Assembly: GCF_016863115.1 (NCBI RefSeq)
Contig: NZ_BOOG01000014.1
Coordinates: 1-64,000, forward strand
Source of the DNA: Sphaerimonospora thailandensis
GTDB taxonomy: Bacteria; Actinomycetota; Actinomycetes; Streptosporangiales; Streptosporangiaceae
Direction of reading: 5' to 3'
DNA: 64,000 nucleotides
Numbering within the stretch: position 1 is the stretch's first letter; each line of letters begins with the position of its first letter. This document shows positions 609 through 4,063 of the stretch, one piece after another. The notes under the pieces were generated by a model that saw only the letters and a program-made list of their open reading frames with translations, was not told where the DNA came from and did no database searches. The position numbers were made by a program, and so were the translations under genes.

Positions 609-1481
609 CTAGGAAACTACGTCCTTGCGGCGGAAGCGGCGGAAGGCGAGGGCGATCAGGATCACCGAGTACGTCACGGAGACCGCCACGCCCTTGATCA
701 TTCCGCTGTAGTCGGGCTGCGGGGCGAGCGCGTCGAGCCAGGCGGCGTTCCAGAACGTGGGCAGGAACTCACGCAGCGAGCCGAGCGCCTCCACCGCCTG
801 GAGGATGCTGCTCACGATGACCAGGCCGACCGCCCCGCCGACCGCGCCGAGCGGCGAATCGGTGCCCACCGAGAGCAGGAAGGCCAGTGACGCGACCACG
901 AGCTGGCTGACCAGGGCATATCCGATGACGACGGCGAACTTCGGCAGCACGTCGGCGGCCGGGATCAGCTCTCCCGTGCCGGGCACCCGGATGTCGTGCC
1001 AGCCGAAGGCCAGCGTGCCGGCCAACAGGGCCATCAGCGGGAGCACGGTCACGGCGGCAGCGGAGTAGCCCAGCGCCACGATCAGCTTCTGCCGCAGCAG
1101 CCTGCTCCTGGGCACCGGCGCGGCCAGCAGGTAACGCAGCGACGACCAACTCGCCTCGCTCGCCACCGTGTCGCCGCAGAACAACGCCACCGCGACGACC
1201 AGCAGGAAGCTCGCCGACACCGACAGTGCGAAGGCCGCGAAGTTGAGCCCGCCCTGGGTGGCGAGGTCCGACAGCCGCAGCGAGCCCTGGTCGCCGCGCT
1301 GTGGACCGAGCTGGAAGGCCACGACGAGGAGCCACGGCAGCGCCAGCAGCAGGCCGAACATCACGAGTGTCCGGCGTCGTTTGAACTGGCGCAGGATCTC
1401 CACCCGCAGCGGCAGCGTCCGCCCGGGAGCGTAGCCGGGCGCCTGCCCGAGGTCCTGGGACTTCTGCGTCAACGGGCTCAA
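609..1481 (-). CDS. ABC-2 type transporter permease
   Basis: This 290-residue protein has a cytoplasmic N-terminus of about 35 residues, then about six hydrophobic segments (first near residues 38-57, then near 80-100, 135-160, 185-205, 215-230 and 260-280), and ends in a basic tail, as in ABC-2 permeases of the CcmB/NatB type. The ATG overlaps the stop of the upstream gene by four bases (ATGA), so it is translationally coupled to the hydrolase-ATPase fusion and should be its membrane partner. The substrate is unknown; drug, lantibiotic or lipid export are usual roles. A short minus-strand open stretch after its stop, towards position 480, did not look like a gene. Confidence 0.85.
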   Translation of the reverse strand: MSPLTQKSQDLGQAPGYAPGRTLPLRVEILRQFKRRRTLVMFGLLLALPWLLVVAFQLGPQRGDQGSLRLSDLATQGGLNFAAFALSVSASFLLVVAVALFCGDTVASEASWSSLRYLLAAPVPRSRLLRQKLIVALGYSAAAVTVLPLMALLAGTLAFGWHDIRVPGTGELIPAADVLPKFAVVIGYALVSQLVVASLAFLLSVGTDSPLGAVGGAVGLVIVSSILQAVEALGSLREFLPTFWNAAWLDALAPQPDYSGMIKGVAVSVTYSVILIALAFRRFRRKDVVS

Positions 1482-4063
1482 CGGCTCTCTCCGATCAGGT
1501 CGAGGAACACGTCCTCCAGCCGCGGACCGGAGCCGTTGGCCGCCCTGGCCGCGCCGAGCAGGTCGCCCACCGGCCCGGCGGAGACCAGCCGGCCGCGGTG
1601 CATGACCACCACGTGGCTGCAGGTCTGTTCGACCTCCGCCAGCAGGTGGCTGGAGACGATGACGGTGCGCCCGTGCTCGGCGTACGCCCTGAGCACCTTG
1701 CGCATCTCCGCGATCTGCGGCGGGTCGAGGCCGTTGGCCGGCTCGTCGAGCACCAGCAGGTCCGGCAGGCCGAGCATGGCCTGGGCGATGGCCAGCCGCT
1801 GCCGCATGCCCTGGGAGTAGGTGCGGACGGCGCGGTCGAGTGCCGCGCCGAGCCCGGCGATCTCCAGCGCCTCCTCCAGATGGGCGTCCTGCGCCGGCCG
1901 TCCGGTGGCCCGCCAGTAGAACTCGAGGTTGGCCCGGCCGGTGAGGTGCGGCAGGAAGCCGGGTCCCTCCACGAACGAGCCCAGCCGCGACAGCACGGGG
2001 GCGCCGGGCACCACCCGGTCGCCGAAGATCCTGATCTCGCCCTCGTCGGGCAGGATCAGGCCCATCAGCATCCGCATCGTGGTGGTCTTGCCCGCGCCGT
2101 TGGGACCGAGCAGGCCGAGCACCTGGCCCTTGTCCACCCGGAAGGACAGGCCGTCCACGGCCTTCTCACCGTTCCGGTAGCGCTTGCCCAGACCGCTGAT
2201 CACGAGCGGCACCTCGGCGAGGTCCGTCCGGCGGCCGTCACGGGCCCGGGCCTGTGTCCCGGCACGGCCGGCGAGCAGCAGCGCGGCGGCGACCGTGACC
2301 GCGGCGAGCGGCAGCGCCCATACCCACCAGGCCGGGCCGGTCCGTGGGGCGGCCAGCGCCGTGTCCCGGGGCAGCGTCAGGTCCGGTGAGTCCAGGCCGA
2401 TGCGGTAGACGGCGGGGGCGGCCGGCGTCGCGTACGCCAGGTCGGTGGTCGAGACGACCACCCGCAGCCGGTGTTCGGCGTCGAACCGCCGGTCGATGGC
2501 CGGCAGCGTGACCGTGACCGGGGTCCCGGCCTCGGTGGCGGTGACCCGCAGCGGTGCGACGAGTCCGGACGGAAGCACGGCCGGCGCCCCGCCGGAGGAG
2601 TCGTAGAGCTTGGCGAACAGCGTCGCCTCGCCCTCGCCGTACACCCGGATCCGGACCGTCGGGCCGCCGGTGACCTGGAGCGGCGCGGTCAGCGGCGCGG
2701 ACTCGAAGACGGCGGCCTGGCCCGGCATGTCCAGCGCGGCCGAGACGCTGCCGCCCAAGCCGCCCAGCAGGCCGCCGAAGCCGGGCACGGATGAGATGGA
2801 CGGGGGAGATCCGCCGGGCGGGTTGGCGACCGGCTGGTCGGGGCCCGAGATCGTGACCGTGGCCGGGTCGGTGCCGGACAGGCCGGGGTAGCGGTCCGCC
2901 ACCGTGTGCACCAGCACGCGCTGCCGCGTCCCCGGGTCGCGTCCCCCGTCCCTGGAGACGGTGAAGGCTCCGGCTTCGGCGGCGCCGCCCGGCTCCCCGT
3001 CTCCCTTCAGCCAGCGGTCGAACCAGCCGGCCGTACGGTCGAAGACCCAGTCGGGCTCGCCGTCGCCGCCGTCGTGTCCGCCGCTCAGCCAGGCCACCTC
3101 CACGGGGGCGCCGGTGGCGGCGATGGCCCGCGCGTTGGCGTCGGCGTGGGAGAGCGGGAACAGCGAGTCGCGCTGTCCCTGGATCAGCAGTGTGGGGATC
3201 TTGATCTTCCCCGGCACCGAGATCGGACTGGAGCGGCGCAGGAGGTCGATCGCGGCCTGGGTGGCCCGCCCGGTCTCGGCCACCTCCTGGTACATGTCGC
3301 AGATCTCCGGAAGGAACCGCCCGCACCGCACCTGTTCGGCGGTCGGCACCCGTGCTCCGCCGCCCGCACCCGGGTCGGCGGCGGCGATTTCCGGGAGGCC
3401 TCGACCCGAGGCGAAGGCGCCGCCGCCGGACCCGAAGAAGATCCCGGCCCACATCTTCTTGAACACACCGTTCAGCGGTCCCTGTCCGGTGGCGTCGGGG
3501 AACAGCGCGTCGGCCAGGTCGTGCCAGGTGATCTGCGGGACGATCGCGTCGATCCGGCCGTCGTAGGCGGCCGTCATCAGCGCGATGGCCCCGCCGTACG
3601 AGCCGCCCGCGACGCCCACGCGCGGGTCGCCGGTGGCGTCGAGGCGCACCTCGGGCCGTTTCGCGAGCCAGTCGACGAGTTGGCGGACGTCCTTGACCTC
3701 GTAGTCGGGCGAGTTGAGCGCGATCTGTCCGGTCGAGCGGCCGAACCCGCGGGCCGACCAGGTCAGCACCGCGTAGCCCCGCTCGGCCAGCCGGGCGGCC
3801 GACGATCGCATGTCCTCCTTGCTTCCGCCGAACCCGTGGGCGAGCAGCACCGCCGGGGCCGCACCACCCGAGGCCGGCGGGAAGAAGGCGGCGTCGAGGG
3901 TCACTCGCTGGTCGCCGGCCGGCCCGTCCATGACGGGGATCGCGACGTCCTGGCCCCTGACAGGTGGTGGGGACGGCCACAGCGCCCAGGCCAGCACACC
4001 GGCCCCGAGGAGAACGAGCGCGACCAGCGCCGCCAGGGGCCGTCGCCCGTCCGGAAGTCTCAT
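1478..4063 (-). CDS. Alpha/beta hydrolase (S15-like) fused to ABC transporter ATPase
   Basis: This 861-residue protein joins two enzymes. Residues 10-29 are a hydrophobic anchor. Residues about 40-560 form an alpha/beta hydrolase resembling the CocE/X-Pro dipeptidyl-peptidase (S15) group: HGFGG oxyanion-type loop near 76, nucleophile Ser155 in GGSYGG, an Asp in GQRDSLFP, a His in GGHDGG, and a C-terminal beta-rich domain. A second membrane helix lies near 575-597. From about 617 a complete ABC ATPase follows: Walker A GPNGAGKTT, signature YSQGMRQR, Walker B LLVLDEP and the H-loop SSHLL. The topology implied is hydrolase outside and ATPase inside. The downstream permease overlaps by four bases. 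The hydrolase may process the exported substrate; that is inference. Confidence 0.88.
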   Translation of the reverse strand: MRLPDGRRPLAALVALVLLGAGVLAWALWPSPPPVRGQDVAIPVMDGPAGDQRVTLDAAFFPPASGGAAPAVLLAHGFGGSKEDMRSSAARLAERGYAVLTWSARGFGRSTGQIALNSPDYEVKDVRQLVDWLAKRPEVRLDATGDPRVGVAGGSYGGAIALMTAAYDGRIDAIVPQITWHDLADALFPDATGQGPLNGVFKKMWAGIFFGSGGGAFASGRGLPEIAAADPGAGGGARVPTAEQVRCGRFLPEICDMYQEVAETGRATQAAIDLLRRSSPISVPGKIKIPTLLIQGQRDSLFPLSHADANARAIAATGAPVEVAWLSGGHDGGDGEPDWVFDRTAGWFDRWLKGDGEPGGAAEAGAFTVSRDGGRDPGTRQRVLVHTVADRYPGLSGTDPATVTISGPDQPVANPPGGSPPSISSVPGFGGLLGGLGGSVSAALDMPGQAAVFESAPLTAPLQVTGGPTVRIRVYGEGEATLFAKLYDSSGGAPAVLPSGLVAPLRVTATEAGTPVTVTLPAIDRRFDAEHRLRVVVSTTDLAYATPAAPAVYRIGLDSPDLTLPRDTALAAPRTGPAWWVWALPLAAVTVAAALLLAGRAGTQARARDGRRTDLAEVPLVISGLGKRYRNGEKAVDGLSFRVDKGQVLGLLGPNGAGKTTTMRMLMGLILPDEGEIRIFGDRVVPGAPVLSRLGSFVEGPGFLPHLTGRANLEFYWRATGRPAQDAHLEEALEIAGLGAALDRAVRTYSQGMRQRLAIAQAMLGLPDLLVLDEPANGLDPPQIAEMRKVLRAYAEHGRTVIVSSHLLAEVEQTCSHVVVMHRGRLVSAGPVGDLLGAARAANGSGPRLEDVFLDLIGESR

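Follow-up and report, generated by a model that had tools for sequence, protein, structure and literature searches.

A conserved fusion of a predicted extracellular serine hydrolase with an ABC ATPase, encoded beside an ABC-2 permease in Actinomycetota

The locus and its neighbours

The window analysed here is the stretch 1-64000 (64,000 nucleotides) of contig C14 (NZ_BOOG01000014.1) of the Sphaerimonospora thailandensis genome, which amounts to 6.18 Mb in 166 contigs. Close to its beginning, two overlapping genes are read from the reverse strand (Table 1). The upstream gene is a single open frame with an ATG start and without an internal stop. Its product exceeds the curated Pfam cut-offs for three successive domains: Peptidase_S15 (PF02129) at residues 54-301 (72.9 bits, cut-off 23), PepX_C (PF08530) at 445-548 (28.7 bits, cut-off 22.5) and ABC_tran at 637-777 (99.4 bits, cut-off 25). 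Abhydrolase_1, Hydrolase_4, DLH, Peptidase_S9, PETase and AXE1 are also over cut-off, all with scores below that of S15. The catalytic serine, Ser155, sits within the motif GGSYGG and the triad is completed by Asp299 and His330. Hydropathy analysis finds two hydrophobic segments, at residues 10-28 and 581-599. The initial annotation had placed an S15-like hydrolase with Ser155-Asp-His, a second membrane helix and a full ABC ATPase on one polypeptide; the single frame and the Pfam matches bear this out, and add a PepX_C-like beta domain and a four-base overlap with the permease gene.

Table 1. Features of the fusion gene and its permease partner (positions in the window; aa, residues of the fusion protein; NBD, nucleotide-binding domain).
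Feature	Position	Strand	Basis
ABC-2 type permease	609..1481	-	ABC2_membrane_2/_4; start TTG overlaps fusion stop (TTGA)
Hydrolase-ABC ATPase fusion gene, 861 aa	1478..4063	-	Single ORF; Pfam S15 + PepX_C + ABC_tran; fusion in 80/80 relatives (best 80 of 549)
Membrane helix 1, aa about 10-28, N-terminus inside	3980..4036	-	Hydropathy; model helix 8-27; positive flank
Extracellular (predicted) alpha/beta-hydrolase domain, aa about 31-355, S155/D299/H330, cysteines 247/255	2999..3973	-	Pfam, alignments, model
PepX_C-like beta-sandwich, aa about 360-568	2360..2986	-	Pfam 445-548; model strands 367-566; PaL/CocE matches to residue 567-569
Membrane helix 2, aa 579-609 in model, into cytoplasm	2237..2329	-	Hydropathy, model, flank charges
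ABC nucleotide-binding domain, aa 618-861	1481..2212	-	Pfam, alignments, structure match
NBD motifs: Walker A 653-661, signature YSQGM 749-753, Walker B LDE 772-774, H-loop 806			

A scan of named genomes confirmed 549 relatives of the fusion, and all counts out of 80 given below refer to the best 80 of these 549, that is, to the closest ones. The downstream permease matches PF12679 (42.2 bits, cut-off 27.2) and PF12730 (36.0 bits, cut-off 27), and a search of its own genome at E<=10 returns no second relative. An ABC-2 permease is adjacent to the fusion in all 80 closest relatives. In 72 of the 80 its start overlaps the fusion stop in the permease frame (ATGA in 46, GTGA in 21, TTGA in 5), each of the 72 starts being preceded by a Shine-Dalgarno (SD)-like sequence. 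The remaining eight show a gap of 59-161 bases between the last codon of the fusion and the beginning of the permease match, and two of these have CTGA at the stop. The combination of overlap and SD-like sequence is the pattern expected of translational coupling, which the sequences indicate for fusion and permease. The pairing with a permease, suggested in the initial annotation, is thus confirmed by adjacency in 80/80 and overlapping genes in 72/80, and the survey of frequency and clustering that it had proposed finds the two genes together throughout the closest 80.

The wider neighbourhood is less constant. When 22 loci representing 21 genera are compared, the ORF families common to all 22 map, among the matches listed, to the DNA of fusion and permease, and no separate neighbour is constant among those matches. 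This comparison was made without a gene caller and is noisy from antisense and shadow frames; one of the families is merged with ORFs of a neighbour. In the window, a divergent gene (4152-5444, forward strand) encodes a 430-residue protein, hydrophobic by eye and without a Pfam or NCBIfam match; 27 of the 80 closest relatives have a homologue of it in the vicinity of the fusion. The divergent gene is followed by a sensor histidine kinase gene (5530-6957, reverse), which separates it from copD, by the CopD and CopC genes (7198-8897, reverse), and by a family-18 chitinase with a ChiC domain and two CBM5/12 matches (9160-11739, reverse). Of the closest 80 loci, 25 have a CopD and 24 a CopC homologue in the neighbourhood of the fusion, all within L107-L135 from Streptosporangiaceae genera; none is found near the Actinomadura, Kitasatospora or Streptomyces fusion loci among the matches listed for these 80. 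A link to copper was considered, and is treated as local synteny of the Streptosporangiaceae loci.

Conservation, distribution and stand-alone homologues

The hydrolase-ATPase fusion is real and conserved. Hydrolase and ATPase share one frame and the permease adjoins in 80/80 of the closest relatives, which include Streptosporangiaceae, Actinomadura, Kitasatospora, Streptacidiphilus, Embleya and Streptomyces; Sphaerimonospora mesophila carries a relative at 88% identity. Among 40 further loci, the one-frame union of hydrolase, beta domain and ATPase next to a permease recurs in 35; four have stand-alone hydrolases and one (L106) has an apparent frameshift. At L106 (7659-10828, reverse) the N-terminal half of the hydrolase is in a different frame and the gene order is kept; the frameshift may be real or a product of sequencing. 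S155, D299 and H330 are invariant in 36/36 sequences (window included; L106 left out because its N-terminal half is in another frame) and conserved in the closest 80/80, and the same 80/80 retain every residue checked in Walker A, the signature, Walker B and the H-loop. A dead enzyme is unlikely, given the retention of the triad. Long ORFs were trimmed N-terminally before alignment, from more than 1,100 residues to 1,000 in the 40-locus set and to 1,080 in the 80-relative set; the window is part of all three alignments, A1 with 19 of 36 loci, A2 with 63 of the best 80 and A3 with 43 of the best 80.

A sequencing error joining two genes, an objection raised in the initial annotation, is ruled out by the single frame in 80/80 of the closest relatives and 35/40 of the other loci, and the assembly-artefact version of the fusion is refuted. 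The same annotation had considered a separate start for the ATPase, through which one frame would yield two proteins. Within residues 604-629, a start-type codon recurs most often at Val618, where 42 of the closest 80 relatives have GTG. These are 42 of the 73 valine codons at this position (58%), a modest excess over the 45% background in these genes. An SD-like sequence precedes GTG618 in only one of the 42, against 72 of 72 at the overlapping permease starts, where the scan does detect real starts; a separate internal start is therefore unsupported. Any form of artefact, whether frameshift, assembly error or internal start, is accordingly very improbable: the slight excess of GTG and the apparent frameshift of L106 speak for it, the uniform single frame and the near absence of SD-like sequences at codon 618 against it.

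The survey of distribution covered Actinomycetota and a plasmid collection, and its counts refer to the hydrolase half, so that matches include unfused forms. This half is matched in 30 of 60 relatives at E<=1e-20 and in 42 of 396 genomes of the phylum at E<=1e-30, the own genome included in both counts. Of these 42 genomes, 18 carry the fused form (own included), nine only a stand-alone form at the locus read, and 15 are counted by search rows or another locus. In one large actinomycete genus, that of genome G023, 136 of 150 genomes have a match at E<=1e-50; the system looks dispensable, since the other 14 have none at this threshold. The plasmid collection gave one haloarchaeal record with a weak match to the hydrolase. 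A 386-kb plasmid of Tsukamurella tyrosinosolvens (L191) carries a fused copy and a permease at 3692-7113, annotated merely as 'alpha/beta fold hydrolase' and 'ABC transporter permease'. In a tree of hydrolase domains this copy groups with a sequence from the genus of G023 (99/93) on a long branch, which makes lateral transfer possible.

The unrooted tree comprises 68 hydrolase domains. A single branch splits the 51 fused from the 17 stand-alone domains with support of 92/94, just below the 95/80 mark of the tree tool. The fused or stand-alone state changes once in 92% of bootstrap trees. This split is compatible with a single fusion event, without proving it. None of the 17 stand-alone loci fetched has a permease homologue nearby; an NBD homologue is absent at 14 of them and weak (24-32% identity) at three. 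At locus L085 (7637-12736, reverse) the open frame that encodes a stand-alone S15-like hydrolase spans 1,700 codons and also contains three matches to the cell-wall-binding family CWB2, an alternative means of keeping such a hydrolase at the cell surface.

Predicted topology, folds and type of hydrolase

The first membrane helix is more positively charged on its inner side in 77 and the second in 72 of the closest 80 relatives. All 80 ectodomains contain exactly two cysteines, residues 247 and 255 in the window; Cys247 aligns in 77, the remaining three having this cysteine at a shifted alignment position. The prediction fits a hydrolase outside and an ATPase inside, because of these flank charges and the two ectodomain cysteines, and agrees in this with the topology proposed in the initial annotation. 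The first helix falls below the hydropathy mark of 1.4 in three of the 80, and some homologues may use this segment as a signal that is cleaved off. Between the hydrophobic part of helix 2 and Lys627 lie 20 to 181 residues in the closest 80, with a median of 24.

The model of the fusion protein has a mean pLDDT of 86.5 and a pTM of 0.70. Its ectodomain is nearest to the lipase PaL (Z 33.0; 447 residues, rmsd 3.0, match over residues 32-567), followed by CocE (Z 27.5) and an X-prolyl peptidase (Z 25.8). We infer from a matching abbreviation in PMC9902596 that the PDB name 'PaL' denotes Pseudomonas alcaligenes lipase. The NBD model is nearest to 1vpl (Z 30.5), NosF (Z 28.3) and ABCA4 (Z 27.6), and the permease model (mean pLDDT 80.5) to NosY (Z 18.1), ABCG2 (Z 17.1) and, with Z 15.5, a mycobacterial efflux pump. 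Both transporter components, as modelled, are similar to NosFY and to pumps of the ABCA/ABCG type. The best NCBIfam matches of the NBD, TIGR01188 and TIGR03740, are both far below their cut-offs; for the DrrA subfamily TIGR01188, 171.5 bits compare with the 312.45 needed for membership.

The label 'S15-like' in the initial annotation holds at the level of Pfam, where both PF02129 and PF08530 match, and has to be narrowed beyond it. The fusion has its nucleophile in the motif G-x-S-Y-x-G, which also occurs in 3/3 S15/PepX_C paralogues of the same genome, and S155, D299 and H330 are kept in all 80 closest relatives. These canonical paralogues have the tyrosine motifs SPYY, TPYG and SPYY, whereas the fusion has HGFG, of which H76, G77, F78 and G79 are kept in 80/80. 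An oxyanion-hole tyrosine, the counterpart of Tyr44 in CocE, is therefore lacking in these 80, all of which have F78. With HGFG instead of the tyrosine motif, the fusion hydrolases probably use a backbone oxyanion hole, as ordinary esterases and lipases do. PepX enzymes are marked by X-Pro cleavage and, in firmicutes, by a helical PepX_N domain; PepX_N has no Pfam match in the fusion. An X-Pro peptidase has been downgraded from first choice: an ester or acyl(-amide) hydrolase is likelier than a dipeptidase, because the fold is nearer to PaL and CocE and the S15 tyrosine motif is absent.

A possible role and its relation to known systems

The most economical reading is that of a pump whose tethered hydrolases would process either the cargo or a membrane ester upon exit, in line with the idea of the initial annotation that the two activities might be linked; we give it a probability of about 0.45. 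Two genes would encode an ABC-2 exporter of NosFY/ABCG-like type, in which every ATPase subunit bears a PaL/CocE-type serine hydrolase, held at the external membrane surface via the subunit's own membrane helix. The pump would be a 2:2 assembly of permease and fusion chains. Its cargo might be amphiphilic, for instance a lipid, an ester or an acylated peptide; ATP hydrolysis would move this molecule outward or place it in the outer leaflet, and the tethered hydrolase would cut an ester or amide bond on it as it departs. On-exit processing is favoured by the joint retention of hydrolase, ATPase and permease in the closest 80/80, by the conserved catalytic and ATPase motif residues and the overlapping permease starts (72/80), and by the signs of topology. 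The PaL/CocE, NosF and NosY/ABCG2 folds, the lack of another constant neighbour among the matches listed, and the 17 of 17 stand-alone loci without a permease homologue point the same way. It is disfavoured by the lack of a family-wide neighbour that names a pathway, and by the 14 of 150 genomes without a match.

ABC-2 proteins may also act as mechanotransmitters, with precedents in FtsEX acting on wall hydrolases and NosFY on NosD. There could thus be little or no transport, ATP hydrolysis changing the permease so as to open, load or regulate the extracellular hydrolase, or to lift a lipid ester to it. NosF and NosY are among the nearest solved relatives of NBD and permease, and a covalent tether between enzyme and ATPase could suit the transmission of force. 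Such mechanical control is nonetheless less likely than on-exit processing, as the permease model is also near to exporters (ABCG2 and the mycobacterial efflux pump) and the stretch from helix 2 to Lys627 in the closest 80 may be too loose. The hydrolase could also merely be anchored here and act on an unrelated extracellular substrate. Being on one chain would in that case serve the dosage or the placement of hydrolase and pump, which would handle different molecules, for example by hydrolysis of a toxic compound outside in addition to efflux. The stand-alone homologues suggest that the hydrolase can work alone, since none of the 17 loci has a permease homologue and only three have weak NBD matches. 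This simple co-localisation is about as likely as mechanical control; against it stand the one branch that separates fused from stand-alone hydrolases (92/94, just under the 95/80 mark) and an arrangement kept in 80/80 of the closest named relatives.

More tentatively, the fusion may represent a distinct class of enzyme-transporter, spread across the actinobacteria, in which ATP use inside drives or gates a serine hydrolase outside through one covalent chain, cargo or membrane lipid being handed to the active site. No description of the fusion was found in the open-access, searchable literature. Export and processing of a cargo are usually carried out by separate proteins. A predicted outside hydrolase and an inside ATPase in one chain, made by many soil actinobacteria including Streptomyces, would offer a ready system in which to ask whether ABC ATPases power or gate extracellular chemistry, and the fusion may bear on the maturation of lipids, peptides or antibiotics in antibiotic producers.

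The fusion shares features with several known systems. PaL (PDB 8yzn/8yzo) and CocE (1ju3 and others) have the same whole ectodomain fold, hydrolase and beta-sandwich, over residues 31-569, but are stand-alone enzymes, CocE having no known membrane helix or ATPase; the fusion adds both. NosFY(D) ranks with the closest solved structures in the folds of both NBD and permease, and NosD is an extracytoplasmic partner that sits on the NosFY transporter; NosF, however, is a free ATPase, and NosD is not known to be a hydrolase or to be fused. DrrA and the lantibiotic-protection ABC-2 ATPases are the best NCBIfam matches of the NBD, although the fusion is not a member by those models, and these ATPases are not known to carry a fused ectodomain. 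The C39-type peptidase-containing ABC transporters likewise unite hydrolase and ABC ATPase in one chain and couple processing to export. Theirs is a cytoplasmic cysteine peptidase fused to a permease-ATPase chain, whereas the hydrolase of the fusion is of a predicted extracellular serine type and is joined to the ATPase only. FtsEX, with its ATPase inside, a wall hydrolase outside and possible mechanical coupling between them, has a like layout, but works with hydrolases on separate chains and with another type of permease.
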